64,000 nucleotides of DNA, taken from Rhizoclosmatium globosum. Lineage: Eukaryota > Chytridiomycota > Chytridiomycetes > Chytridiales > Chytriomycetaceae. This document shows positions 20,492 through 58,486 of the stretch, piece by piece. Both the position numbers and the translations under genes were made by a program. A model generated the notes under the pieces. It made no database searches. It was given only the letters and a program-made list of their open reading frames with translations, and was not told where the DNA came from. Each line of letters opens with the position of its first letter. Position 1 is the stretch's first letter. The stretch spans positions 57,971 through 121,970 of the forward strand of contig MCGO01000119.1 of NCBI GenBank assembly GCA_002104985.1, given 5' to 3'.

Positions 20492-21836
20492 CTATTCGAA
20501 TACTTCGCTGTTATAATAAACATCCTGGCCCAAAATCCCTTTTGAATCCACGCCAAGAGCTTTACCTCCAAACGTCTGAAACAAAGTCGGACACACTAGC
20601 TGCATCACAGATCCCAAGACACTATCTTCGTGAATTCCTACTCCTTGAGTGGCCTTGTTCCAATAATGGATTCCTACACTTTCATCCACCAGTTTTGTGG
20701 CCCGCTCGCATTGAGCTTCAAGAGGATCATAAAGGAGGCCCCTATCTTGGTATTGAATAGGGAAAAAGCGGTGCTCAGGAGCAACGTTGAGGTCATCGCA
20801 TGAAGAATGATACAATGACATATTGCCTCCTGGTGGATGGCAGTTTCTATTATATGCACGCATAACCATTTCTGGTCCATTGAATCCTAGAATTGAGAGC
20901 GATTGTTAAAAAACCCAGCACTTCATGGTCTGTTAGAACCTCACCCCATTTGTATCCATTAAAGGACTCTGCAAACTCTTCCATCAACTGCCACACGAAT
21001 GCATCCGTCTTATTCATGCTGAAAAATGCGTTGTTGAACATGCCCCAATCTTGCTTTGCGAGGGTGCGTGCCATGCCACCAACAGGGTTGATTGACAGAA
21101 TGTCCAAATCCATGTACACACCGCCCGATTTGTAGAGTTGAGCTAGTCGGAATCCATTTCCGAGGTTTTGTTCAACCCATGTAGACTCTTTGTATAGGCC
21201 TTGTTGGAACCAGGATTCAAGCGGTGTGTCTTGAAATGTTTCCTCCCAATCAAGAGCACTGACTACAATCCGACTCTTCACATCTTCCGGAAGCGCTGAC
21301 GACCACTTGCTTATTGATTTGATGAAGGTCTTGTGATTTGCGGCATGTACTGTGATGGTGTGATTTGGGTTCTTGCGTGCTGCCGACTCCAATGAGCATA
21401 GATATTTTGGGTTCTTTAACCGTTCGTTGAAATGCAGAAAGAAGATTGATTTGGGGATTGCTTCGGCTTGCGGGGAAGGATGCGTAAGAGGGACAGATGA
21501 GGTTTCATCAAGGAGGTATGTTGTAAGGTGATTTGAGGCACGATCGACAAAGTGGGTGCAGTTTGTGCGGTTCCACTCTGATAATGATGAAAGCAGCAGC
21601 CTTTCTCGGAACGCAGACGCAACTGCCTCGGTTGGGTCTCCAGGTGAAGTTGCCTCCGAAGATAGTAACACGGAACAGAGAGGGACCAGCGCTCCAATCA
21701 CCGCCACTGCTAGCAGAAGCTGGAACACCTTTAAACGCCGCCTTGGAAGTCCCATTGGTGGTGGACTGAAGGTACTCATTGACTTGCTGTCCGTCCCTTT
21801 CATTGGTGAGAAGTTTTTGGATCCTCCGAATTTCAA
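20492..21836 (-). CDS. A4GALT-like GT32 glycosyltransferase, array member A
   Basis: Exon 1 (21836-20945) and exon 2 (20886-20492) join over a 58-nt intron to give 428 aa without frame breaks. It is a type II membrane protein: a basic N-terminus, then a signal anchor around residues 35-60 (VFQLLLAVAVIGALVPL). The GT32 sugar-binding core follows (IFFLHFNERLKNPKYLCSLE) and the DXD motif is in GGVYMDLDILSINPVGG near residue 240. The C-terminal alpha-1,4-glycosyltransferase region has NGPEMVMRAYN, RFFPIQYQ and VGIHYWNK. The family uses UDP-galactose or UDP-GlcNAc in the Golgi on glycolipids or glycoproteins; donor and acceptor are unknown here. It is the downstream-most of seven same-strand paralogues. 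Confidence 0.85.
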
Positions 21837-22673
21837 TTGGGCTTGTGAACTTCCAGTTGCTTGTATGCCTCCAATTCTTCAAGACACTGGAGGTTATATT
21901 TATATTATTAGAATAGTTCACAATCTCGAAATATGTGATAAACTTTAATTGATTTTATTGTATCTTGGCTAGGAGTTGTGAGGTCGCCAAGACTTTCAGG
22001 TTCAAAACATTCGAACTGTTATTAAATTGTTGTGCCTGATGAAGAACTGAAGACATTGTCTCAAGACGTCTAAGTTGAGGTTTTAAGTGAGGCGATGAGG
22101 GGCAAATCACAATCAGCCATGGCCGAATTTATGGGCAAATTCTGCTGCAAATTCTGCACCATTTTAAGGCGCAATCATTGCGTTGAGTAATAAAATGATT
22201 CTTGCCTTATGTTCTTTGCTTCGCCTTACCTTTACTCCCTTTATGAATCTATGGTTCTGCTTTGAACCTTGACTATTGGTCTATTACTAAGCGATGCAAA
22301 AGGGATAAATTTCATTTCTGAAAACGAATTCGTTTGAGGACCTGGAAAAAGAGATTACGAGACTTTTGATTCAGTTCGCCACCCCCTGTTTTGGCGTTTT
22401 GACAGGGGAAAATCGTAGGAGAATTTCTGAGGAAACAGGGATTGGGATTTCTTCTGTGGACTTGGACATCATGGTCACATAAAGCGTGTCCTGGCTGATT
22501 ATAACACACAGCAACCACAGATTAGCTACCGTTGCTTTCTCATTGAAATGATTTCGTTCTCTAACAACCTTTTGATACCTAGAACACGAAAGTGAATTGC
22601 ATGCCATACACTCATTCAGAATAAAAACAGCGACTTCCGTCAGTAAATGATACAACGCCTCACAATATTGTGG
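21837..22673 (+). other. Intergenic region upstream of GT32-A and the F-box-like gene
   Basis: This gap of more than 800 bp is AT-rich and one of the largest gene-free stretches here. I see no conserved frame, tandem repeat or RNA gene. It separates the divergently transcribed GT32-A (-) and the gene at 22729 (+), so it should hold both promoters. Confidence 0.5.
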
Positions 22674-22680
22674 TATAAAA
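22674..22680 (+). promoter_or_regulatory. TATA box
   Basis: TATAAAA lies 49 bp upstream of the ATG of the F-box-like/Cys-rich gene at 22729. The spacing is plausible for a short 5' leader. Confidence 0.5.
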
Positions 22681-22728
22681 GGGTTGAATAGGAATAGTTA
22701 CTGAAAAACACTCAACCACACAGCAAAG

Positions 22729-24135
22729 ATGGCTGTCAAGAGAACCACAACAACAGTCACAACAACAAAGTCGATTGTGAATGGTCAAGTTGTAACGACC
22801 ATCCGCACCGAGACCCGGGTTTCATTTGTTTCAGTGAGCGGACTCTTTTGATTTTAACGACACTTATTGAGTTGATCTTCTCAGGTTGCCACCGAATCCT
22901 GCACACGCACCCCCAAAGCACCTCCAACTGAACTTGATCGCCCTGTCTCGGATCAGGAAGCTTATATACCGCCTGGATCTGTCACTGATCTCATTCCACT
23001 GCCGTCTTTGACAGCTGCTTTGCCCACAGAGAGTCTCATCCAAGTCTTTCTTGAGTGCCATTCAAACGGCGAAGACGACGACAATGACGATGAAGACTAC
23101 GATGACGATGAGGACGATGAAGACGGTAATAGACCGAGGCCACTCAAGAATGCCGTCAAAAGAGCATTCCGTATGAACCTCACCCTTTTGGCCCTGGATC
23201 GCACGACTCGTGCTATACTGATTAATACTCCGATTTTATGGAGAAATCCAATTGAGACGTGGTCGTTCCCAATGTTGCGGACTGTTGCCCCGGTTCTTGT
23301 ACCAGGCTGTTTCAATAGAATCACGGACTTGTCGCCAGACGTGGACGGGCAAGTCCAGCTTCCTGAAACAGTCGCAGCTCTTTTGGCGAAATGCCATAAT
23401 TTGGAGGCCGTTTTTTTGTATTTCCTCTCACTAGATATGCGCACGTTACTCAGCCTTGTCAAAGAGGGACCACCACTGATGCTCAAGAACCTTGTTTTTG
23501 TGGACCTCGATGTCAAGGACGCGGATCACTTCTTTTACGAGATTCAAGAGCTACGTGAACTCATGTTGGCGTCTGTCGAGAATCCTACTGAAGTTGTCGT
23601 GAAACCTGTTGCGTGTGGATGTAATGGCGCGTTCCTTACGCCGTACAAGAGCAACGGGGAGTTTGTTCATGAAAGAAACTGTAGCAAATGCGAAAACCAG
23701 TTGCCGATTCTTTGTGTTGCTTGCACGAAGGATGCTGGCCTTATTGTTCAAGAATGTGCGTGTCAGCAGGACGATTGCGATGTCATTCTTTGCAGAGAAT
23801 GCGCAACGACGAATCGTCCATGTGAGGTCTGTGAGCTTTGGACCGAGAGAGAACATTCGTCTCGCAAAAAGTTTTGTTTCAAGAATTGTGGAAAGTACGT
23901 TTGTTGGGACTGTATGCCTGTTTCTGGATGGATCAAGTGCTTGTTTTGCACGTCCATCATGTGCCCGACATGTGAACTAGACACAAAGCAAGTCTGCACA
24001 AAGTGCGATCGTTGGAGTTGTAACGAAGAGCATATAGAAAAGTATCGCCGCAGAAAGAATTTCAAGTTGACGGATGCAGAGACAAGTGAACAATGTTGCG
24101 CTCTGGGTGTTGTTGATATTTTGCAGGCAAACTAG
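22729..24135 (+). CDS. F-box-like protein with C-terminal cysteine-rich domain
   Basis: Exons 22729-22833 and 22885-24135 (51-nt intron, phase 0) give 451 aa with no frame break. The N-terminus is Thr-rich. An F-box-like segment follows (PTESLIQVFLECH...LALDRTTRAILINTPILWRN), interrupted by an acidic Asp/Glu run of about 25 residues. The last 180 residues hold about 30 cysteines in CXXC pairs (CSKCENQ, CVACTKD, CRECATT, CEVCELW, CWDCMP, CPTCEL, CTKCDRW), suggesting several zinc-binding modules. A substrate-recognition or E3-related role is possible but unproven. It is the only plus-strand gene inside the GT32 array, with its stop 36 bp from the convergent GT32-B. Confidence 0.6.
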
Positions 24136-24170
24136 AATAGATACCATATACATTTACGATTCGATTTATT

Positions 24171-25447
24171 CTATAGCCAATCTTGTTTCTCGACACGGTA
24201 ATACTCAGCACTACCAACAATTCCATTTTCATTGACTCCAAGTTGATTCCCTCCAAAAGTCTCAAAAACAACGGGACAAGCCAATTGCATCATAACACCT
24301 AGCAAGGTCTTATCTCCGATTCCAGTATGTTGTGTACGTTTGTTCCAGTAGTGGACTCCGATGGCTTCATCTGCAAATTTCACAGCATTGTCGCACTGTG
24401 CGTTGAAGAGATCATATAAGTCTCCTCGTTGTTCGTATTGAATGGGAAACATTCTGGCGAGAGGCGCAACGTGTAAACCCTCGCAAGAATTATGAGGTTC
24501 TGATGCACCACAGGTTTTCGTGTAAGTCCGTGTGACCATGTCTGGACCGTTATAACCTTCAGATATAAAGTTGAGCATCGTAAATAGGTAAAATAACACA
24601 AAGACCGAAACTCACCCCATGTATATCCTTGGAATGTACCGACAAACTCTTCCATCAGCTTCCACACAAACGGGTCTCGCTTCTGCATACTAAAAAATGC
24701 ATTATTCATCCGCGTAGAATCTTGCATGACGATTGACCGTCCCATTCCACCAACTGGGTTGACCGAGAGAATATCAAGATCGAAATACACGCCACCCGAT
24801 TTGTAGAGCACAGCAAGGCGGTATGCGTTTCCGAGGTTCTGCTCAATCCATTTTGATTCCTTGTAACGTTGTTCTTTGAACCACGGCTCTAGTGGAGTAT
24901 TTGTCATCGCTTGTTCCCAATTTAGAGATACGACACGGATTCGGTTCTGCATATGACTCGGAAGCGCCGCTTTCCACGTTTCGATTGCTTTTACAAAGGT
25001 CCAGTGGTTTGCAGCGTGGATGGTGATCATGTGTGAAGGGTTTTGGCGTGCGGCAGATTCGATCGCACAGAGATACTTTGGGTTCTGCAGCTGGTCGTTG
25101 TAATGAACAAAGAAGATGTTTTTGGGTATAGAGGCGGCTTGTGATGAGGGTCGCTTGATGTTTGATGTTGATGTTGCGTTTAGGAGGAAGGTTGACGGGT
25201 GGGAGGCCCTGTCGATGTAGTGATCGCACTTCAGAACAAGATCAAACTTTGTTCTGATTGAAGTGGCGGCGGCTGCCAGTGAAGTATCAACTTGTGGCGG
25301 CAGTGACAGCAACGACACAATTGAGAAGAGCGACATCAAAGTTGCCGCTGCCAAAAGAAGGTGAAGCGCTTTGATCTTTCTTGGTGTTGGAAGCATCATC
25401 GATTGAGACGGAGCAGGGATGGTGATCTTCTTCATGCAGTGGAACAA
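24171..25447 (-). CDS. A4GALT-like GT32 glycosyltransferase, array member B
   Basis: Exon 1 (25447-24616) and exon 2 (24556-24171) join over a 60-nt intron at the same codon (TGG-G|G) as in member A, giving 405 aa without frame breaks. The signal anchor lies around residues 26-48 (LHLLLAAATLMSLFSIVSLL). The core has NIFFVHYNDQLQNPKYLCAIE, the DXD motif lies in GGVYFDLDILSVNPVGG near residue 225, and the C-terminal block has NGPDMVTRTYTKTC, FPIQYEQRG and IGVHYWNK. It is closest to member A by eye, including the shared intron, which suggests that A and B arose from a duplication later separated by the F-box-like gene. Confidence 0.87.
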
Positions 25448-25511
25448 TGTTAATGGAATTTTTGTTCACAAGCACAACGCCAAGAAAAATGGAGAAAGAT
25501 GTATTGCTGAA

Positions 25512-26768
25512 TCAGAACTTTGTCTTTTCCTGTTTCAGATACTCAAGTGCCCCAATCACGCCGCCAGCTCCAATTCCCAATTCATCTTCCGAGAACACGG
25601 AAAAGACCGCAGGACATACACGCTTCATCACAATCGCAACTGCCGTCTCATTCGAGACTTTGGCTCCTGCAGTGCGCTTATTCCACCAATGCAATCCAAT
25701 GCTCTCATCAGCAAACTTGGCCAACAAATCACACTGCTGGTACCACGGATCAAAGAGCCACGCCCGCTCTCCATACTTTACTGGAAAAAACCTCGAAGTA
25801 GGTGCGATATTCAAGCCATCGCAAATATTTCGCTGTCGGTCGTCCAGCTGATTCCCATTACAGGTCTTATTAAACACTCGAGTAACAAGCTCAGGCCCTT
25901 GATGTCCCCACCGATAACCTCTCCACCCCGACACAAACTCATGCATAGCCTCTTCTAAAAATGCATCACCGCTCGGGAAGCTCAGGTAAGCGTTGTTTAG
26001 CCTTTTAGAATCTTGCATACCCACGCTTCGGCCCATTCCTGAGACTGGATTGATGCTAACAATATCCAGGTCCAGATATACGCCTCCGTGTTTCCAGAGA
26101 TGCGCGAGACGGAAAGCGTTTCCAAGGTTCTGTTCTATCCATTTGGACTTCACGTATTCCTGCCTGTTGAACCAACTTTCGAACGGTGTGCCTCGGAAAG
26201 TGGTTCCCCAGTTAATTTCAATGACGTTGATACGGTCTGAGAGGTTGGTTGGAAGTTTGCTGCGCCAAAGCTGAAGTGAGAGTGAAAATGATGTTGTGTT
26301 CATGACGTGAATGATGACGTTATGTAAAGGATTTTTTGCCGCAGCTGATTCAATCGCACACAGGTATTTTGGGTTCTCCAGGTTTTTGTTGTAGTGAAGA
26401 AAGTGTATTGTTTTTGGTATGGACGGGTTGAACAGAGGTTCAGGGATTTGGACTTTGTGCTTTGCGTTGAGATAGTGATTGCTTGTGAGGGAAGAAGTGT
26501 GGTTCAGAAAGTGGGTGCATTTGTCCTGATAAGTCCGTTTCGATGGCATAGGTAAAGTTGGAGAAGGCTGTGCGATTACGTGGTGCGATTCAAGTCCAGA
26601 GTCCGACTTTATAGAAGGTGGCTGTAGTGAAATCCTCATGAAATAGAGGCCAGTGGCGAGTGTAACCAGAATGATGACAATGATGATTCTGTGGCGCGGC
26701 AGCCTCTTACTGTGGAACTTGGTCAGAACCCATTTCCTGAGACAAATAGAATCAGATAGAGCCTGCAT
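25512..26768 (-). CDS. A4GALT-like GT32 glycosyltransferase, array member C
   Basis: Single exon, 418 aa, intact. The signal anchor is around residues 26-45 (RIIIVIILVTLATGLYFM). The core has TIHFLHYNKNLENPKYLCAIE, the DXD in GGVYLDLDIVSINPVSGMG near residue 230, and a C-terminal region HQGPELVTRVFNKTC, FFPVKYGER and IGLHWWNKRT. The WGHQGPELVTRVF stretch is very like vertebrate A4GALT. It lacks the intron found in members A and B. An intergenic gap of 64 bp separates it from member B. Confidence 0.87.
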   Translation of the reverse strand: MQALSDSICLRKWVLTKFHSKRLPRHRIIIVIILVTLATGLYFMRISLQPPSIKSDSGLESHHVIAQPSPTLPMPSKRTYQDKCTHFLNHTSSLTSNHYLNAKHKVQIPEPLFNPSIPKTIHFLHYNKNLENPKYLCAIESAAAKNPLHNVIIHVMNTTSFSLSLQLWRSKLPTNLSDRINVIEINWGTTFRGTPFESWFNRQEYVKSKWIEQNLGNAFRLAHLWKHGGVYLDLDIVSINPVSGMGRSVGMQDSKRLNNAYLSFPSGDAFLEEAMHEFVSGWRGYRWGHQGPELVTRVFNKTCNGNQLDDRQRNICDGLNIAPTSRFFPVKYGERAWLFDPWYQQCDLLAKFADESIGLHWWNKRTAGAKVSNETAVAIVMKRVCPAVFSVFSEDELGIGAGGVIGALEYLKQEKTKF

Positions 26769-26875
26769 AAGCGGAGTATAGAAGCTAAAGTTGAGGATTG
26801 GTTTGGGGTGCGGAACTTTGACAGGTTCTGCTCAAAACAATTACAAGTGCTTTGGCGACAACAACAATTTTATTT

Positions 26876-28050
26876 TCAAACTCGATTCTTTTGTTTTGGC
26901 CTCATTAGTTCTGGATCTTCAGCTGTGAGTTTTGCTGCACCCAAAACAGCATTCGCATCAATTCCCAAATCGCCCTCAGAAAGCTCCTCAAACAACGCTG
27001 GACAATGTGCTTGCATGACTATGGCCAATACGCTTCGATTTGACATCACCTCAACCTCCTTTGCCCTGCGATTCCACCAATGTAACCCCACAGATTGCCG
27101 ACTCATCGCCTCCATATCCTCGCAAAAGCCATCCCAAGATTCAAACATTAGATGTTTTCGTTTATATCCAAATGGATACACAGCTTCCTTCGGAAGAATT
27201 TGAACCCCGTCACACTCGTCGTTCTTCTCCTTACCTGCACAATACTTTTTCCACGTCCTCGTAACTACTTCAGGTCCATTCCGGCCCCATATATCACCTC
27301 GAAACCCTGAAACAAACTCCTCCATCATCCACCACACGACAGGATCCTCTTTTTCAAACGCCAGAAACGCATTGTTCAGTGAGTTCCCGTCTTGGAAAGC
27401 AACAAGCCGTCCTGGGGGCACCGGATTGATACTTATAATATCCAGATCCATATAAACACCTCCATATCGATACAACAATGCGAGACGAAGTGCGTTTCCA
27501 AGGTTTTGCGCGATCCATTTCCCTTTCGTTCCTGCATCCGTCTGCCACGCTTCCAGCGGTGTTCCTTCGAATACTTCTGTGTATGAAGTTTCGAGAATAC
27601 GTGTGTTGGGGGTAAACAAGTTGGACGGGGTTTCGGCGATGAAGTTTGACCGGTTTGTAACGTGGACGCGGATTTCGTGCTTTGGATTCTTTGCAGCGAA
27701 AGATGATATTGCGCAGAGGTATTTTGGGTTTTGGAGGTGTTGGTTGTAGTGGATAAAGTGGGCGATTTTGGGTACTTTTGATAAAGGTTTGTTTGGCGGG
27801 AAGAGAGAGGGAGTACACTATGGTCTATGAATTTCTTGCATGTGTCAGGTATTGACGTTGATTGAAGAACGTAACGAAGGAAGGTTTCGTGTTTCGTTGG
27901 TCGCTTTGACAAGGGGGTCAGTCTACCTCTTACTTGGAGGAAGATGAGAATAGTGACAATCAAGAACACAGATGCTTGGAAGATTAGTCTTCTTCGAGGT
28001 AATTTGCGTGTTTGTGCTGGATATGCTGGGGGAAGTCGAATGGGAAACAT
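26876..28050 (-). CDS. A4GALT-like GT32 glycosyltransferase, array member D
   Basis: The N-terminus from 28050 has a basic head (RKLPRRRLIFQ) and signal anchor (ASVFLIVTILIFLQV). After a one-base loss near 27805, the core continues as KIAHFIHYNQHLQNPKYLCA, DXD in GGVYMDLDIISINPVPPGR, NGPEVVTRTWKKYC, VYPFGYKRK and VGLHWWNRR, to the stop at 26876. With one base restored the length is about 391 aa with no intron. Golgi type II topology and retaining alpha-glycosyltransferase activity are inferred from family. The catalytic DXD is intact. Confidence 0.8.
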
Positions 28051-28113
28051 CGTCTTTTGTTGTGAGAATTATTGATAAGCACAAGCTTGTAAAATGAGCA
28101 GATCCCCAAGCAT

Positions 28114-29594
28114 TTATTTCTTCATAGAGTCATCGGTTCGCATCCCCAGCTCTTTATGGGAAAACGTGTTGACGAGTACTGGGCAGTGCGATATCATTAT
28201 TATTCTTAGAATAGAGGTCTTTCGAAGGTCCTGTATATTTTTGAGACGTTTATCCCAATAGTGCACTCCTATCGACCTTTTGCAATCGATTTTAGCTGTG
28301 TAATGATGTAGAAACTCAACTCTCAACTCACTCATCAGCGATTCGGCCCATCATCTCACACGAATCGTCCCAATATGTTTGATCTATGGCGCTAGTATAG
28401 TTGAATGGGAAAAACCGCATCGGATCTGCGAGTTCAATGCTCTGACATTCTGGAATCTTGCACTTGCGGAGAGTTCTAAATGAAAAGGTTTTAGACGCCA
28501 CACAAAATGAAGTGATAATTACCTGGTAACAGCTGCAGGTCCGTTGTGTCCCCTAAAAACCATAGTCAGTTTTCGCAAGTTTTGAGCCTTGACGATACCA
28601 TTTATCGCCTCGAAACCCTCGCACGAACTCTTTCATAATCTCCCAAATAAATGGATCACGAGGCTCGACGCTGAAGAAAGCATTATTGGTATTTTTCTTG
28701 TCCTGTCTAGCCACTGTTCGCCCCAACTCCTTCACGGGATTGACGCTGATAATATCTAGATCCGAATAAACCCCTCCGAACCTGAAAGATTTGAAAATCA
28801 GTTTCCTGTTAAAGACAGGATGGTCCTTACTTCCACAGCATACCAAGTCGAAATGCGTTACCCAAATTCTGCTCAGGCCACTTTGATCGAGCCCACTTCC
28901 TTTCTTTCCACCATTCAAATAATGGCGTGTCCACCATAGCATCACCCACTTCAACTCCTTTACAACCAGTCGACGGTCTAACCCGGCGTTTTTTCGCCAT
29001 TTTTTGATTTTGGTTTCAAATGTGTTTTTCCTCTTTGCGTAAATAATGATTCGATGATCCGGGTTCTGTCGTGCGGCAGACTCTATTGAGCAAAGCCGGC
29101 GTGGTTGTTGGAGCTCGTTGTTGTAGTGGAGAAAGAATATTTGCTTTGGAATTTGAGGGGATATTAATGATGTATTTGTTGAGTTTCTGTCGTTTGGAGT
29201 CAGAAAGTACGATCCAGGTGAGGCGGCGCGATCGAGAAAGCGTTGGCAGGATGGATCGCTGGTTGTGATCTGTCAAAGTAGTGTTTGCAACTGCTTAGTG
29301 GAGCGATCATTTGAATACCTTCAGCGATAGATTTCCGAATAAGTTTGACTCAGGTTTTGAAGCTTTTTCAGAAGGAAGCGCGACTGGTTGGATTGATGTG
29401 GCCTTGATGGGAGGATTCACTTCCGCTGTTTTCACTGGCTCTGCATCATCCATACCGAACCAAAACAGAGCAATATACATAGAAGCCAGGAAAAGACTGC
29501 TGATACTCGTAAAGAGGGATGGTGACAGCTTCCAACGAGTATGTAGGAGTTTTCGGGAGAAGAGCATCAGAATCTGTTCAAACTGGAAATCCAA
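28114..29594 (-). CDS. A4GALT-like GT32 glycosyltransferase, array member E
   Basis: The most intron-rich member. Exons give a signal anchor (SLFTSISSLFLASMYIALFWF), then QIFFLHYNNELQQPRRLCSIE, EQNLGNAFRLGMLWK, the DXD as DLDIISVNPV in GGVYSDLDIISVNPV, NNAFFSVE, WGHNGPAAVTR, PMRFFPFNY and SIGVHYWDKR, with the stop at 28114. Introns are seen near 29300, 28785-28833, after KW, after VTR and after ADE. One base is missing near 28950, between KELKW and DAMVDTPL. Its start lies only about 14 bp from the stop of member F. The substrate is unknown. Confidence 0.78.
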
Positions 29595-29607
29595 ACAAAA
29601 TATTTAT

Positions 29608-31132
29608 TCAAGCGACATTTCTTGGCTTCTGTCCATCAAGAACGCCATTCTTCTTTTTATCAAAGGCCATCGAAGCATCGCCTCCCTTAACTTCTGCAGG
29701 AGCTCCGACCTTAGCTTTCTCGTCCACACCAAGTTGAGATTCCGGAAATGATTCGAACACAGCAGGACAGTGAGACTTCATAAGTACCGTGAGCATTGTT
29801 TTCGTGGAAATCGTGGACGTTTGTACGCGTTTGTTCCACTATTTAAGAGTTAATTTGATTATTCAAGGAAGAAACGCATTAGTCACCCAATGAATTCCAA
29901 CGGACCTACAAAATAAAACAAATTAAAGCAGTTTTCAAGCTGAATGAACTTACTCGCGTGATATTTGCTCCATCAAGTCACAGCTTTCGTCAAAAGCTTC
30001 AAAGAGTTTCTCTCGCTGTTCGTATTGGATTGGGAAAAATCGTTCCGTTGGCATAACGGCCAAAGTTTTGCAGACTTCTACCATAGACTCATCGATTTCG
30101 TCTTGCTCGCAATACTTTTTGTATGTTCTGGCAACAATTTAAAACATATTCCGAATCTGCAAAGTAAATCGTCTTTACCTCGTGACCATTCGTGGACCAT
30201 TTCTTGCCCAAATATGTCCCTTAAACCCGTCAACGAATTCTTCCATCTTTAAGAACAGAGTATTAGCACGATAACGTCGTTAAACGGACACAAACCATTT
30301 TCCACGCGAATTTATCTTCTTTCTCAAGGCTAAACACGGCATTGTTAAACCAATCTTTATCCTGCATTGAGATAGCTCTTCCAAGACCTCGAACAGGATT
30401 CAAACTGATTATGTCAAGATCCATATACACTCCGCCCATTTTGTAAATCAGACCCATTCTAAACGCGTTTCCAAGATTCTGGTCTACCCAGGAGCTATCT
30501 TTCCACCGGCCTTCTGTCCACCATGGCTCCAAAGGTGTACCCATCATTTGTTCAGCCCAATCCAGTTCTCTAATTTCAAGCATATCATTCATGGCGCCTC
30601 CAACACGCGAAAGCCATTTGCTGACATCTCTCCGAAAGTCCTTTGCATTTCTGGCGAACAAGTAGATTTTGTGGTCTGGGTTTTGGCGGGCTGCGGACTC
30701 AAGGGAGCACAGATAACGGGGATTCATAAGCCTCTCGTTATAGTGCAAGAAAAATATGTTTTGGGGGATATTCTCGTATTCCTGTGGCTCTGATTCGAGT
30801 GTGGGGCCAAGAAGGATTGTGTTTGGAGATGTTGCACGGGCAAAGAACTTTTGACAGCCGTCTTTGGGCGTTGCTGGCTCTGCATCTTCTGGTGATGGAA
30901 GTAGTGGGTCGTTTGGAATGGCATCCTTGTCATTGGCAAGAGGAAGTATCGCCTTGTTTCCTGATTCTGTTTGCTTTGAGTCAGATGAGGACAAGAGCTG
31001 AGGAGAAAGCCAGTTCCATGTATGGCAGAGAAATACGACGGTAGCCAAGGCAGCGACGATAAGGCGGCGATATTTCAAGTGGACTTTCATGTTTGAGCAA
31101 GGGTGTTTGACACAAAAAAAACGCTTGAACAT
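29608..31132 (-). CDS. A4GALT-like GT32 glycosyltransferase, array member F
   Basis: Exon 1 (31132-30296, phase 0) holds the signal anchor (LIVAALATVVFLCHTWNWL), NIFFLHYNERLMNPRYLCSLE, WVDQNLGNAFRMGLIYK and the DXD in GGVYMDLDIISLNPVRG. Exon 2 starts at 30246 with MEEFVDGF and ends after NGPRMVTR. Exon 3 has TYKKYCEQD, FFPIQYEQR and ends at SRE. The rest gives SVGIHW, NKRVQTS and a Lys-rich tail to the stop at 29608. No frame break is required. It sits in tandem with members E and G at very short spacing (14 and 49 bp). Confidence 0.83.
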
Positions 31133-31180
31133 AAAATCAAACCCCTTTATTATCCAAACAGTGAATAGCCGAAAACGCGA

Positions 31181-35419: not shown

Positions 35420-35532
35420 CTTTCTACTCGCCTTCCACCTTTTCCCAACTATTCTATACAATTGAAACAAAAGTAATGGTCCCTCGACTTTAGTAATACA
35501 GCGGCAAGAACAATCACAAATCAATCACAACA

Positions 35533-36429
35533 ATGGGCAACTCCACTTTCATCGACAACCGTGACGGTTTGGTGTACTTTGAATTCTCGCTGCAGGCTTG
35601 CGGGTTGCTTGCTTGTTTTTACTATAGTTTTCATACTCGTCAAGGAAATTCCTGCGCGAAGTCAAAGCTACAACATGACAACAATATTCTCCCTTTCAAA
35701 CACTCTGATTATCCTTTTGTTGATTTGCGTTCCAGGATACATTATATCCGATGCAAACTATCATTGGGACGGACGAGACGCAAGTTGGAACAAAGCCGAG
35801 ACGTTTTTTATGGCGTGTAACCAAACATTCTATGCCCATTATTCATGGCTACGTGGCAAAGAGGTGTTTAAAATGCAAACTACACCCAGAACATATCGTG
35901 CTCTCAAATATGTGTTGCAACTTCTCCCAGTTTTGAGTTTGGGTCCATTTGTCGTGCTGTTGATTCCTATGACACAGAGCAAACTTCGCTTGCATACTTA
36001 CTGACTGGAGCTTCGTCAGGACTTGCCACGATTGTATTGGACGTGTTCTACTGTTATTCGTTCTTAAGACAAATCTTCAATATGGTTGACAACACGATCT
36101 CAGTTCCTGTCTCTTATCACACGATAGCTAATTATGGACTCGGTGCATCAGTTTGTGCTCTTCTTCTTGTTCTTACTTTTGTTGGCAACGTATTACTAGT
36201 TGATGGTGAATCTCCATCACAAATGCACTCTTGGCCTACGCAATCAGAACGGATTATTTGGTACCCTTCTGGTATCGAATGGGATAATTCTTGTGATGAT
36301 GAAAGGGAAACCTGCATTCCTCCATGGAACTACAACGGCAACGATATTCGAAAGTTTCTGGACACAACCGAGAAATTAGCCGTTCCGGATGTTCAAGTAT
36401 CGAATAGAACTCTCCTTTCAACATTATAA
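35533..36429 (+). CDS. Multi-pass membrane protein, unknown
   Basis: Conceptual translation with two single-base repairs (near 35610 and 35965) gives about 300 aa with five hydrophobic segments: LAGCLLVFTIVFILV, NTLIILLLICVPGYII, YVLQLLPVLSLGPFVVLLI, LLTGASSGLATIVLDVFYCY and VCALLLVLTFVGNVLLV. The N-terminus has a potential glycosylation site (NSTF) and the C-terminus is hydrophilic with WDNSCDDERETCIPPW. No family motif is recognisable. Topology could be that of a divergent receptor-like or transport protein, but that is speculation. Its stop lies about 20 bp before the next gene. Confidence 0.45.
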
Positions 36430-36448
36430 TAATAAATCGTCATTGGAA

Positions 36449-37669
36449 ATGTCCCAGAACTCTACCCAATTTCACGATTCCGAAAAGGAAACACTTCAGC
36501 CATCAATTACACCAAAAACGATCAGGATGAAACTGAAGATGGAGAGATATCTGAGACTTCGCCAGAAACGTCTGAATGGGAACCCAAAACCTTCAGTCTC
36601 CTTCCGTTTCCTTGCCACCTTCACAAACAATCAAACATTCTCTATGATCCATCAACAAGAGTATACTGCATCTGGGACCCTCAAAGGAAGCCTGGACAAT
36701 GATGGAACCAACTGCGCAAACAATCCAGAACCAACCCCAATCATCCGCTTAACCGTAACAACCACTTCACTCAAGGACCTTTCACCTAGTCAATAATATG
36801 CATCGATACTATCAATCCAGAGACCTCGAATATATCCTTCCAACTTGGACGAGATGAGGGTCACTTGTTTCTTCGAGAACTGTCCGTCTCACGCAGTCAC
36901 GCTACAATATTCTCGCAGCGTGTTTTGTGTCCCGTTTATGGTGGTTGGACTGATTATGTGTAATTTGCGATTTGGGTTCAACGCAAGGAACTTTTGTGGA
37001 TGGAGAACGAGTGGCGGATGCGAAAGAGAAAGGGAAGCTAAAGCGACTTGTTCATGATTCTATATTAGTCATTGGATCCACGGAATTCAAAGTGCATGTT
37101 CATCGGGAATGGCCTTGCGCAGGCTGTAAAACAACTTCCTCCAATCTGGTACAAACCCACTCGAGCATCAAAACATTCTCATCGAAAGCGAAAGAGGCTC
37201 CTCAGACTGGAAATGTGTCCATTGTGAATACACACAAGGCTGAGTTGAACAATTTGAAACGGACTTTGTTGGGAACAACAAAGACTGGAGCAACTGCGTA
37301 TGACAGCGTCCAAAATGAATATCTAGATCGCAGTTCGATACGGCGAAAACTGTTTGAAAATCACAGCGAACCTTTCAACAATCAAGGTGTCGTCGAATCT
37401 CAAGGTGTGAATTCATCACGTCTTTCATCCCAACAACAGCAGCAACACGTTCTCAAACATTTGTATAACCAGCATGTTGCGAATGAGATCACATCTCTAT
37501 TATAATAGAGGAGGATACGGCATACGTGTTAGGGAGTGGGTGAAGCGATGCTCTCGAAACTTGGTTGGAAAGAGGGCCAGGTTTGGGCAAGCGAGAAGAC
37601 AGCATCAAAGAGCCCATTCAAGTGCAAAGGAAAGAGGGAAAGTTTGGATTGGGATTCGGCCCCAAATAG
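36449..37669 (+). CDS. AGGF1-like protein (OCRE, FHA, G-patch)
   Basis: After a Glu/Ser/Thr-rich N-terminus (DETEDGEISETSPETSEWEP), a tyrosine-rich OCRE-type segment (SNILYDPSTRVYCIWDP) is followed by an FHA domain (QLGRDEGHLFLRELSVSRSHA...STQGTFVDGERV...FKVHVH). A Gln-rich linker comes next, then a C-terminal G-patch (MLSKLGWKEGQGLGKRED...FGLGFGPK). This order matches AGGF1. G-patch proteins usually activate DEAH helicases in splicing, so an mRNA-processing role is likely. Frame changes are needed near 36520, around the FHA core and near 37592, where one lost base hides the G-patch glycines. The stop at 37667 is 8 bp from the convergent transporter gene. Confidence 0.72.
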
Positions 37670-41989: not shown

Positions 41990-43634
41990 TTAGATGGACT
42001 TGTAAGTTCCGGTGAACTGATCCTTGTATTGGCGAGCCTGTGGAGAAGAAGATTCAGCACTATATACTAACTGATTGGATGCTAGCTAAAGCCTCTTCCT
42101 GTTCTTTCGCTTACTTTCTCCACTAAGTTCACTCTATCCACGCCTTGTTTGCCCCACTCACATTTCTTTCCGACATCAGTCCATCGAGTTCGTCAGTCCT
42201 CTTGCTTCCCTACTCTCCTACACTTTTACTTTCCACCTCATTGATGTGTTTCGCTATGCTCACTATTTTTCTCTCCAACTTTGTCACACAGCCGAATTCG
42301 ATTGCTCACTGAACTCACAGTCTGCATGACGCCCAGATTTCGTTCACTCCGTTAAAATCTATGTTCGCTCCGCTCACTCTTTGCTTTTGGCACTTCTATT
42401 TTTCTCTCCTCCGACTTTGTCAATCCATTTACTCCATCGAATTCAATTGCTCGCTACACTCACTGCACTCACTGCACTCACTGTACTCACTGCACTCACT
42501 GCACTCACTGCACTCACTGTACTCACTGCACTCACTGCACTCACTGCACTCACTGTACTCACTGCACTCACTGCACTCACTGCACTCACTGCACTCACTG
42601 CACTCACTGCACTCACTGCACTCACTGTACTCACTGCACTCACTGCACTCACTGCACTCACTGTACTCACTGCACTCACTGCACTCACTGCACTCACTGC
42701 ACTCACTGCACTCACTGCACTCACTGCACTCACTGCACTCACTGCAATCACTGCGCTCATAGTCTGCGCGACACCCAAATTTCTCCTCTAAAAAGACACT
42801 CACAGTAACAGCGTTATCCTCCAAATTTTCCGGATCAGCACCCAACTCCAAGTGAAGACCGTCGTATGGGTAATCTCTTTCGGCCTGCCACAAGTGCTTT
42901 GAAGGGTCCCATGCATCAATGACATTATAAAGGGCAGCAAAGGAGGCAAGGACAACGAGAATAGCCTGAAGGAAGGGGCCCTTGTTGACACCCGGACCGT
43001 GAGACCAGTGGTTCATTTGGAGTTCCTGGTCAGCAATAATGTCACCATAGTTTCTGCGAGACTGCTGGTCCCAGTACTTGAAGGGGTCTTTGAGTTCAGT
43101 GAATTGGTGGGTGATGCGAGGGTAGGCGCCGATGGGGGCTTCCAGGGCGTTTTCAAAGTTAGAGAGGGAAGGGTCTGGGCCGGGAGGGGATTTTACGAGC
43201 GGGTTACTGTTTGATATGTTAACCAACCACCACCAAAACATCAAAAAAACAACGCACGTGCTCGCAAGCAAACCCGACTGATCAAACTCGGGCCACTTCA
43301 GCGGGCCAAGCATCTTCTCGCCAATGCCCGTGTATGGTTTCGCAGGTTGGGTCAAGAGCGGGTGAGTCACGATCGCATCCGGATCGAACGTGTCGGCGTG
43401 GCTCGGCTTCGACGGCGGCACTTGGTTGTTGCTCCAGAGCTCGCCGGACGACGGAAGCGGAAGCTCAGGCGTTGCTCGGGGTGAGCGCGCGAACGGGTCG
43501 TACGGCCTAGTTGCGTGACAGAGAGAAGACCTAGGGTTAGCTGCTACCCTAGGAACATAGCTACGAAGAACGTACTTGGTCGAGGCGTGGCGCACAGTCC
43601 GGCGGCCCAACACGGAGGTCACTCGTGAAAACAT
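41990..43634 (-). CDS. Mitochondrial complex I subunit, NDUFB8 (ASHI)-like
   Basis: Exons 43634-43576, 43506-43258, 43206-42804 and 42037-41990 join in phase to 252 aa. The N-terminus is Arg/Ser-rich (MFSRVTSVLGRRTVRHAST), a typical mitochondrial presequence. The conserved part has YWDQQSRRNYGD, ELQMNHWSHGPGVNKG, a membrane segment (FLQAILVVLASFAALYNVI) and the signature YPYDGLHLELGADPENLEDNA, matching the accessory membrane-arm subunit NDUFB8. The last intron (766 bp) contains a long 9-bp tandem repeat, so naive translation continues into a Ser-Glu-Cys repeat that is not part of the protein. The last exon encodes ARQYKDQFTGTYKSI. Confidence 0.82.
42456..42762. repeat. 9-bp minisatellite (TCACTGCAC)n with 36-bp higher-order pattern
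   Basis: About 33 head-to-tail copies of TCACTGCAC or the variant TCACTGTAC. Variant units sit at intervals of 4, 8, 4, 4 and 4 units, so the array is mostly built of a 36-bp super-unit (three C-type plus one T-type). It lies wholly inside the last intron of the NDUFB8-like gene. The flanking bases TTCGCTCCGCTCACT and GCTCGCTACACTCACTG look like degenerate versions of the unit. Confidence 0.95.
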
Positions 43635-48408: not shown

Positions 48409-48733
48409 ACTCCAATAAATTTTATATCTTAGAAATGACTGTGATCTTGCCTTGAAGGGACCATGCGCGATTGCAGTTGTAGCAAGATGTCAACCAATCA
48501 ATGCCGACCAAGCCCAACTGAACAGGCCACCATCCCCACAAAAAAATCGAAACCGACCATCAACGGGCTTTCATCAGGAGTTCCAAACGGTCACAACGGG
48601 TATCAACGGGATCTGGCATGGATCACCAAAACATACCGCTATCTGTGATTGTGCGGCAAGTTTAGAAGAGTATAAAACCAGACTCAAGTTGTCACATCAC
48701 TAACATCAACGCACAACAATCTCAAATCAAAAC
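48409..48733 (+). promoter_or_regulatory. Promoter region of the peptide-precursor gene, with TATA box
   Basis: TATAAAA at 48671-48677 lies 57 bp upstream of the ATG at 48734. The rest of the 325-bp gap between the ABCC gene and the precursor gene has no conserved frame. Confidence 0.5.
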
Positions 48734-49520
48734 ATGAAAGTCTTTACTACTCTTTCCCTCCTTGTTCTCTCTCTTTTGGTCTCGGTGACAGTCAATGCCG
48801 CCCCAGTTTCTGTCCAAGGCGATGTAGCTGTTGTAAAGCGCGACCCGTTCTGCTGGAAGGGATACTCTCCAAACTACTGTAACTCATGGATCAAAAGCGT
48901 GATGTTCCAGCTGCTACTATTGGTGATGCACCAATGAAGCTCCAGTCCCAGCCAAGGAAGGAATTGTTGCTGCCTTGGTTAGACGCTCTCCATTCTGCTG
49001 GAAGGGATATTCCCCAAACTACTGTAACTCTTGGATTAGAAAGCGTGATGTTGAAACTGACGATGAAGTTCCTGTGTCTCGTACCCTTCCAAAGACGAAA
49101 GGATTTGCTGCTGCTTTGATCAAGCGTTCTCCATTCTGCTGGAAGGGTTACTCGCCAAACTACTGTAACTCATGGATTCGCAAGCGCGACGTTCCAGTTG
49201 CCACTATTGGTGATGCCCCAGTCGAAGCTCCAGTACCAGTCAAAGAAGGAATTGTCGCTGCCTTGGTTAGACGCTCTCCATTCTGCTGGAAGGGATATTC
49301 TCCAAACTATTGTAACTCTTGGATCCGCAAGCGCGAAGTTCCAGTTTCTACAATTTCTGATACTGCTGTTCCAGTCGAGACTCCAGCCGAGGTTGCTCAC
49401 GAAATTAGCAGCGTTTCAGTACCAGAAGCTCCAGTTAAGGCTGTCGTGCCAGTGAAGCGTTCTCCATTCTGTTGGAAGGGATACTCGCCAAACTATTGCA
49501 ACTCTTGGATTAGACGTTAA
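48734..49520 (+). CDS. Kex2-processed repeat precursor of a two-cysteine secreted peptide (pheromone-like)
   Basis: A signal peptide (MKVFTTLSLLVLSLLVSVTVNA, about 22 residues) is followed by five near-identical copies of a 17-residue peptide, [D/S]PFCWKGYSPNYCNSWI. Copies start at 48842, 48987, 49128, 49275 and 49461. Each is preceded by KR or RR, and copies 2-4 are followed by RKR, all dibasic Kex2-type sites. The two cysteines are eight residues apart and could form a loop. Spacers are acidic/Val-Ala-Pro-rich with Xaa-Ala/Xaa-Pro pairs (DVPVATIGDAPVEAP). This is the layout of fungal alpha-type pheromone precursors and of Kex2-processed repeat proteins. Between copies 1 and 2 two single bases appear lost (near 48894 and 48928); a 63-nt intron is a less likely alternative. 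The function is unproven. Confidence 0.8.
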
Positions 49521-49551: not shown

Positions 49552-49557
49552 TAATAA
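49552..49557 (+). terminator. Putative polyadenylation signal of precursor gene
   Basis: AATAAA about 32 bp after the stop codon of the precursor gene, followed by a T-rich stretch. Confidence 0.35.
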
Positions 49558-49812
49558 ACCTTTTTCTAAACTGACGAATACGTGGTCTTATGAAGGTGAA
49601 TATCTGAAACACACATGTTCAACTGCGCATGCCTTTCTGCCCGACACTTCCGAAACATAACTCCGTCTGACCAATCAGATTCTTGCTGAGTGAACATGAC
49701 TTCATTTCGAAGCCCAAGAAATAAGGGTTTCTGCTTGACGAACCATTCTTTGGGCATAAAACAGCTCTGCGCTTTTTTTCAAACTCCGTCAAAACCAAAT
49801 CCAAACAAGAAC

Positions 49813-56661: not shown

Positions 56662-58486
56662 TCACAAAATGGCACCAGCTACGGCAGTTGAGATCCAAGT
56701 GGAAAAAGCTCCAGTCAACATGGCTGACAGAGCCAATTCAGCCAAATCCTTTCTACGAGAAGGAGCAATAACTCCCAGAATTGAGGTCTGAATTCCAATT
56801 GACCCAATATTCGCGAACCCACAAAGCGCAAAACTCATCAAGCGGACAGTACGAAGTGGGAAAGCTCCGTTCAATGGATAAGATCCGTCTGCTGTAGCGT
56901 TAACCTGGAAGGCATAGTCGTGCAAATTCGCGTATGCAACAAACTCGTTCACCACCAATTTGGTTGCCATAAATTCGGCAGACTTGCGCGCATCGCCAAC
57001 TGGAATACCAAGGCAAACAGCGACTGGCCAGAAAATGTATGAAAGGAGAAGCTGGATGGAAACTGGTTGGGAGGAGTCAATCCAGTTGGCAATGCCGACC
57101 ATGTTGAAGGCCCAAGCGACAATATCGTTGGCACATTGGTAGAGTGAAATAATGGCCAAAAGGGAACCAGTGATAAGAAGACAGAGTTGAACACCGATAG
57201 CGGCTCCCTTGGAAGCAGCGTCAAGCAAGTTCGCATCCTTTTCATCGGTTTCTGGGACTTTAACAGTACCCTTGGTGATTGATTCTTCTGTCTCTGGGTA
57301 AATGATCTTGGAGACAAGAAGCGAGCAGGGAACAGACATCAAGCAAGAAGCCAACAAGGTAGAAGTGGACGATGGGTTGTTACCAGTGTCTATAACATGA
57401 AAGGTTAAGCAAATATTAAAGAAAATAATTTCCTACAATTGATGTAAGCAATCAACACGGATCCAGAAATAGTCGCAAAACCGGAGACCATAGCGGAGTG
57501 GATTTCAGATCGAGTCATAAACTCAACGAAGGGCTTAACAAGAAGCGCTGACTCTCCTTGTCCAACGAAAGGAGAAGCAGCAGCCACAACAGACTCAGCC
57601 CCAGAGGTACCCATCAAGCGAACCATGATCCAAGCAAACTTTCCAACAATGTACTGCATACCTCCAATATAGTAGACGATTGAAATGAAAGAAACAAAGA
57701 ACAGAATCGCAGGAAGAACAGCCACAGCAAATGTGTATTTGAACGGGTTGTTCGCCTTGGGTCCAAGAACAAATTCAAGACCAGCTGTTGACTCCTCCAA
57801 GAAGGTAGTAATCAATTGGACAAGAACCAGAAGATGTCGACACCAATTGAGTTTTGAGAATGAAAATTGCGATGATGTATTGGATATAGAAACCAGAGAG
57901 TACAGTTCCCCAGGGATGTTCTTTCTGTCATTTGAGAACCCGTAGAGTAAAGCTGTCATGAGAATAATTCCTGCAATGGACTGGAGTCTTTGTCCGATAT
58001 TTCCAGTTTCAGTGACAGGAGATCCGCACGCAACGGCAAGGAGAATCGCCAAGTAAACAACACCAGCAATTGGAAGCTGGAATTTCTCTGGAACCGCATT
58101 AACTCCAGCTCCGATAGTGAGGTTCCAGGCTCTCCCAAGTGGCTCTAAATATCATTGGACGCTATTTTTAGTTTCCTTCTAGAACACAGATCCGAAACAA
58201 ACATACCGTAAATAAGTTGGCTCATAGAAATGTGCTGGGCCAAGAATCTCAGCGTGATTAGAACGTAGACAACAATTGCAAACACGTATCCAGGCTTGCC
58301 TTGACCTTTGATGATGACCGCGATGATGAAGGCAGTCAGTGGCAGCCAAATGGCCAAATGGTAGAGAGCAGTTTTGGCATCTCTCTTTCCAAACTTCTTC
58401 TTTTCTTTGGATTGGGCTTCGATGGTGTCGCCAAGACCGTTGGTTGGGTTCAAGTCAATGACTGCTTTGTTGTGTGGAATAGCCAT
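56662..58486 (-). CDS. Concentrative nucleoside transporter (CNT/SLC28 family)
   Basis: Exons on the minus strand from the ATG at 58486, with introns near 58145-58205 and 57390-57440. The N-terminus is hydrophilic, then membrane helices begin (YHLAIWLPLTAFIIAVII). Diagnostic CNT motifs are GQGESALLVKPFVEFMTRSE and EIHSAMVSGFATISGSVLIAYI, followed later by LVVNEFVAYANL and GFANIGSIGIQ. These residues line the nucleoside site and hairpins. The transporter imports nucleosides with Na+ or H+ at the plasma membrane. One frame break lies near 57850-57900 (before FLVQLITTFLEES). CNTs are rare in ascomycetes and support an early-diverging fungus. Confidence 0.85.

Follow-up and report, generated by a model that had tools for sequence, protein, structure and literature searches.

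Among described fungal proteins, the closest to the locus reported here are the Kex2-processed repeat proteins (KEPs), in which a signal-peptide-like start is followed by repeats separated by Kex2 sites, and for some of which a STE13 signature (an XA or XP pair after the Kex2 site) has been described. The class occurs in Chytridiomycota, 178 KEPs having been recorded in 14 of 19 chytrid strains (PMC7329392), and the layout is therefore not special to pheromones. Ascomycete alpha-pheromone precursors have the same layout, together with the X-Pro trimming signature. KEPs that carry the STE13 signature have been put forward as good peptide-hormone candidates, since the signature is absent from the precursors of cyclic toxins and from Rep1 of Ustilago maydis, whose Kex2-released repeat peptides attach to hyphae (PMC6339444). 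Dikaritin RiPP precursors, such as those of ustiloxin and phomopsin, also contain Kex2-flanked repeats with Tyr, and STE13 processing is not predicted for that class (PMC6339444). On the receptor side, mating pheromone receptors have been described as the single GPCR family that is conserved throughout the kingdom (PMC6733946), STE2 was limited to Ascomycota in a survey of 1357 genomes (PMC12842992), and Rhizophagus is described as having a Ste3 orthologue and as lacking peptide pheromone genes (PMC3834313). Pheromone chemistry is called largely unknown in early-diverging fungi outside Mucoromycotina and Blastocladiomycota (PMC6339444), and the chytrid host of the present locus thus fits the description, given in the initial annotation, of a lineage in which peptide pheromones are not established.

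The window, which is the whole stretch of 64,000 nucleotides that was analysed, is part of contig C23 of the Rhizoclosmatium globosum genome, which was searched as 56.9 Mb in 420 contigs. It contains five near-identical copies of a 17-residue unit, [S/D]P-FCWKGYSPNYCNSWI, spanning positions 48842-49511. The initial annotation had described a precursor with a signal peptide, five near-identical repeats bounded by dibasic residues, and a core of C-X8-C spacing. The repeats, the dibasic residues on each side of them, and the spacing of the core are borne out by the sequence, and the N terminus that follows the ATG at 48734 is signal-peptide-like when judged by eye. A precursor in one continuous reading frame, as had also been claimed, is absent from the window: the frame opened by the ATG at 48734 comprises the hydrophobic N terminus and copy 1 and then reaches a stop at 48937, and a second open frame, 48927-49520, encodes copies 2-5. 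The spacing from copy 1 to copy 2 is 145 nt, and the remaining three inter-copy spacings are multiples of 3. The features to which the text refers are as follows.

35533..36429, + strand: orphan 7TM-like gene, about 12 kb upstream of the precursor, its frame broken in the window
48671..48677, + strand: TATA box-like TATAAAA, about 56 nt 5' of the ATG
48734..48799, + strand: signal-peptide-like N terminus MKVFTTLSLLVLSLLVSVTVNA, 22 aa (from the translation, judged by eye)
48800..48841, + strand: short pro-region APVSVQGDVAVV, ending in KR (from the translation)
48842..48892, + strand: copy 1, DP followed by FCWKGYSPNYCNSWI (from sequence and translation)
48893..48936, + strand: frame-breaking stretch with two 1-base deletions relative to contig C410 (from the alignment)
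48927..49520, + strand: open frame with copies 2-5 (from the ORF listing)
48987..49037, + strand: copy 2, SP followed by FCWKGYSPNYCNSWI, with RR before and RKR after
49128..49178, + strand: copy 3, SP followed by FCWKGYSPNYCNSWI, with KR before and RKR after
49275..49325, + strand: copy 4, SP followed by FCWKGYSPNYCNSWI, with RR before and RKR after
49461..49511, + strand: copy 5, SP followed by FCWKGYSPNYCNSWI, with KR before and a terminal RR and stop after (TAA at 49518-49520)
49553..49558, + strand: AATAAA polyadenylation-like signal, identical on C410

When the genome was searched for the core pattern, it was found in five places on C23 and in five on C410. The latter contig aligns with window positions 33996-63729 as a pair of long blocks of 94.8% and 96.2% identity, with a gap at 42386-42701 located at a 9-bp repeat, and because of this collinearity we take C410 to be the other haplotype of the same genome. 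On C410, the precursor ORF (minus strand, start 314220) runs uninterrupted for 262 codons and includes the five copies in frame, and the TATAAAA is kept despite an adjoining 8-nt indel. Beyond these two haplotypes, weak matches on C121, C261, and C386 (three in all, E 0.309, 31%) were read as candidate paralogues and judged to be chance. The 9-bp repeat itself, at 42457-42759, amounts to 33.7 copies in the tail of the NDUFB8 frame, where the haplotype alignment breaks, and the C410 frame has fewer units. Upstream of the precursor lie NDUFB8 and an ABC transporter (44.9-48.1 kb), and downstream SNF2, weak PHD, and RING domains occur in frames that we take to be probably one SHPRH-like gene; no biosynthetic cluster around the precursor was apparent among the frames scanned. 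Elsewhere in the window, six frames with Gly_transf_sug and/or Gb3_synth domains at 20853-31180 on the minus strand form a glycosyltransferase array, in which 28556-29272 is borderline, and frames with Na+-dependent nucleoside transporter domains (Nucleos_tra2_C and Gate) occupy 56665-58151, also on the minus strand.

Judged by its predicted anatomy, the locus can be assigned with high confidence to the KEPs of chytrids. At least three internal repeats with Kex2 sites between them are expected of the class, and here there are five; in the intact C410 protein, 10 of 10 [KR]R sites lie at copy edges, a count of 10 that was reached in 0 of 20000 shuffles. The earlier reading of a secreted-type precursor with Kex2-flanked repeats is supported. 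Upstream, each copy is flanked by KR or RR followed by S-P or D-P (5 of 5 copies), so that the Xaa-Pro pairs noted earlier are found as a Ste13-like X-Pro behind every upstream dibasic site, and downstream by KKR, RKR, or, in the last copy, a terminal RR. Differences between copies are limited to the S or D before Pro and the trailing K or R, and these would be exactly the residues that Ste13-type (X-Pro) and Kex1-type (trailing K/R) enzymes trim, the roles of the enzymes being taken from PMC6339444 and general knowledge; with the variable residues trimmed, all five copies would become the same 15-mer, FCWKGYSPNYCNSWI. Rhizoclosmatium is not named in the main texts of the KEP papers (PMC6339444 and PMC7329392), and the precursor may already be listed in their supplementary tables.

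Candidates for these enzymes are encoded in the genome, where the initial annotation had advised looking for Kex2 and Ste13 homologues, and matches of both the kexin type and the DPPIV type are present. A kexin-like protein with Peptidase_S8 and P-domain was found, among 24 P-domain matches in all; DPPIV_N was matched on two contigs, both times with internal stops that would reflect introns or errors, and S10 peptidase matches number 43. Groups of similar-scoring kexin-like P-domain matches were also seen on C43, C420, and C390, and perhaps represent tandem arrays on more than two haplotypes. The course that we infer from the sequence, from secretion and processing through disulfide formation to signalling by way of a receptor, would begin with the signal peptide, which would bring the precursor into the secretory pathway. 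Kexin would then cut after the KR or RR on either side of every copy, a Kex1-type S10 carboxypeptidase would remove the trailing K/R, and a Ste13-type DPPIV dipeptidyl peptidase would remove the leading Ser-Pro or Asp-Pro, with five identical molecules of FCWKGYSPNYCNSWI released per precursor, each of which could close a Cys2-Cys11 ring. The calculated MH+ of the mature peptide is 1867.793 when reduced and 1865.777 when oxidised, and the corresponding values for a peptide that keeps its leading SP are 2051.878 and 2049.862.

The core of the repeats appears to be under constraint. All 10 copies, five from each haplotype, have the same 15-mer, and yet 8 of its 15 codons vary, every change being synonymous. 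At least nine changes were counted, and for all nine to be silent under a simple neutral model gives p = 1.5e-6 (transitions favoured) or 8e-8 (uniform), values that are approximate owing to shared ancestry and gene conversion; the latter could also be a source of the uniformity of the copies. Between haplotypes, the core has 0 non-synonymous and 4 synonymous differences and the rest of the protein 10 and 6, across 85 core codons (two leading residues included) and 176 others (stop included), with two indel codons set aside. This contrast is weak (Fisher two-sided p = 0.087), and it runs in the expected direction, that is, with conservation of the core rather than of the spacers; the reverse, which had been named as grounds for abandoning the proposal, was looked for and not seen. 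In comparison genes, the non-synonymous and synonymous differences were 10/34 for the Na+/H+ exchanger (NHE), 8/35 for the first ABC frame, and 16/9 for the first frame of the SNF2 gene, and in view of the last of these the rest of the precursor is not unusual.

The intact C410 protein had no homologue in the protein database at E<=10 among the best 8000 candidates by shared words, and copies 2-5 had none at E<=0.001 among 5913 candidates. As a control, the Na+/H+ exchanger of the window retrieved a protein of Rhizoclosmatium sp. JEL0117 at 97% identity and one of Obelidium mucronatum at 80% identity over 59% of the query; since chytrid proteins were found in this way, the null result bears on annotated proteins of similar length rather than on unannotated DNA. 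With no homologue to compare, the case for constraint draws on the two haplotypes and the internal repeats and not on conservation across species. The core DNA pattern had no exact match in viral contigs or in prokaryote genome contigs, two overlapping fragments of the core occurred in no paper of the literature searched, and MF_alpha was not among the Pfam matches of the precursor at E<=10. Pfam did report a Chromo match to the C410 precursor (E 2.8e-5, 24.4 bits, below the 25.1 cut-off), which we do not regard as homology but as chance plus repeat inflation, because a short WKGYSP likeness is spread over four repeats; at residues 90-109 of the C410 precursor and in other repeats, the WKGYSP of the core resembles the chromodomain core. 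The structure predicted for window copies 2-5 without an alignment was uninformative (mean pLDDT 48.2, pTM 0.17). As for the host, a match to IFT57 that passed the cut-off was split into five pieces along a single contig and points to a flagellate stage, with three prokaryote controls also matching below the cut-off. Together with the identities of the exchanger, this puts the host within or beside Rhizoclosmatium, in the Chytridiomycota. Contig C46 carries an rDNA unit in which ITS1 is, by eye, apparently unusually long.

What the released peptide would do is a question apart from the anatomy of its precursor. The reading to which we give the most weight, at about even confidence, is that it would serve as an extracellular self-signal, pheromone or hormone-like, acting through a receptor other than Ste2, and we consider this the most likely role because a short invariant peptide is present in five copies. 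We rank it, on balance of the evidence, ahead of both an outward-acting and a surface peptide. The former, in which the KEP would supply defensive or antimicrobial peptides or effectors acting on hosts, prey, or competitors, is unlikely but deserves to be taken seriously, as an effector role is raised as a non-exclusive alternative in PMC6339444 and KEPs are described as a fungal armory in PMC7329392. It would also be in keeping with the outcome of the STE2 and STE3 searches, in which no receptor was identified, but a single Lys is the only charged side chain of the core, which is identical in every copy on both haplotypes. Peptides engaged in arms races often diversify, and a greater positive charge is common among antimicrobial peptides. 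A surface or wall peptide in the manner of Rep1, and hence not a signal, is rather improbable. Repeat peptides that are aromatic-rich and contain Cys would suit it, as would the attachment of Rep1 peptides to hyphae, but each repeat peptide here is just 15 residues long, in five copies, and X-Pro follows 5 of 5 upstream dibasic sites, whereas Rep1 is described as being without the STE13 signature (PMC6339444).

A self-signal would call for a receptor, and the orphan 7TM-like gene upstream of the precursor is a possible partner of the peptide. On C410, this gene is open for 304 aa from its ATG, with seven hydrophobic segments counted by eye, and its protein matches no sequence in Pfam or the PDB at E<=10. 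The two haplotypes differ at 105 of 897 sites in the gene (11.7%) vs 147 of 5083 (2.9%) in the surrounding 6 kb, which makes it the sharpest divergence peak in the compared stretch, with a maximum of 15.6% per 200 bp; a value of 14.3% is seen in a 98-site bin next to the 9-bp repeat. The peak, at 35450-36750, is sharply bounded, with about 3% around it, and covers the 7TM-like gene and the start of its neighbour. Such deep allelic divergence might be what is expected of a mate-recognition receptor. The family has 85 matches in the genome, counting the gene itself, haplotype copies, and fragments, and with so many members, the location of one of them 12 kb from the precursor may be coincidence. 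Three other pairs from the family were compared: two show hardly any difference in either gene or flank (0.1-0.2%) and possibly reflect duplicate assembly, and the third differs by 6.5% vs 3.2%, a comparison in which the 300 nt preceding the match were included in the gene, so some of the divergence excess may be a habit of the family. That the peptide is the ligand of a Ste2-free chytrid pheromone or hormone system, with a member of this orphan 7TM family as its receptor, is accordingly a specific proposal that we hold only very tentatively.

Slightly more doubtful still is a strict alpha-type sexual pheromone with a Ste2 orthologue as its receptor. The precursor layout is the same, the STE13 signature after the Kex2 site is present in all five copies as S-P or D-P, and pheromone receptors are conserved kingdom-wide according to PMC6733946. 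The core is also loosely like the Fusarium pheromone WCTWKGQPCW (PMC7329813), both being short aromatic peptides with two Cys, W-K-G, and Pro. Among shuffles of the core, 170 of 5000 score as high against the F. graminearum peptide, 388 of 5000 against that of F. oxysporum, and 1189, 2586, and 3163 of 5000 against three other peptides; the likeness is weak, the best of five peptides tried, and suggestive at most. The oxidised F. oxysporum pheromone is reported to be inactive (PMC7289986). Set against these points, the host is a chytrid, the peptide is a 15-mer with C-X8-C, and the precursor has no MF_alpha match and no significant sequence relation to known precursors. The search for Ste2-type GPCRs that the initial annotation had called for was run and gave no STE2 match genome-wide, in a search in which no control genome matched either; the confinement of STE2 to Ascomycota (PMC12842992) points the same way. 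For STE3, two candidates were scored genome-wide, none at E<=0.001, and again no control genome matched.

We return, then, to the broken frame of the window. Relative to C410, the A-run of the window at 48893-48896 is one A short, and a T is missing near 48935. An intron between copies 1 and 2 in place of a frameshift was rejected because the stretch aligns with the coding spacer of C410 with two single-base gaps only. One-base deletions in the window outnumber one-base insertions by 145 to 42 over the aligned 33996-63729 (p = 1.8e-14), 73 of the 145 deleted bases are equal to a neighbouring base, and one-base deletions crowd the downstream SNF2/RING gene. Given this excess on the window contig, with several deletions in the SNF2/RING gene, the frame break is likely an assembly error, a true null allele on this haplotype being the less likely cause. 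A decaying pseudogene, in which both frameshifts would be real in the window haplotype and the gene would be on its way to being lost, seems to us very improbable. It would account for the two 1-base deletions that disrupt the frame, and the deletion excess is uneven, the 2-kb bin with the precursor gene having 3 deletions and 7 insertions and thus no excess of its own, but the C410 copy is intact, the core is under apparent constraint, and the contig as a whole is rich in deletions. Least credible of all is a dikaritin-type cyclic RiPP made by UstYa/DUF3328 oxidases, for which the Kex2 repeats and two Tyr in the core might speak, but a genome search gave no UstYa match (no control genome matched), in line with the earlier statement that no DUF3328-type tailoring gene lies nearby, Pfam scans of 26 window frames (24 of 64 frames >=150 aa and 2 shorter, some in part) gave no UstYa/DUF3328 domain at E<=0.001, and DUF3328 proteins are reported in PMC7329392 as absent from the six phyla besides Ascomycota and Basidiomycota.

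The implications of the locus depend on whether the self-signal reading is correct. Should the peptide not be a signal, the precursor would be one more among many chytrid KEPs. If it is a signal, it would provide a genetically encoded and synthesizable pheromone or hormone candidate for chytrids, along with a defined set of 7TM genes among which its receptor could be sought, and the age of fungal peptide signalling, with or without Ste2, would become testable.
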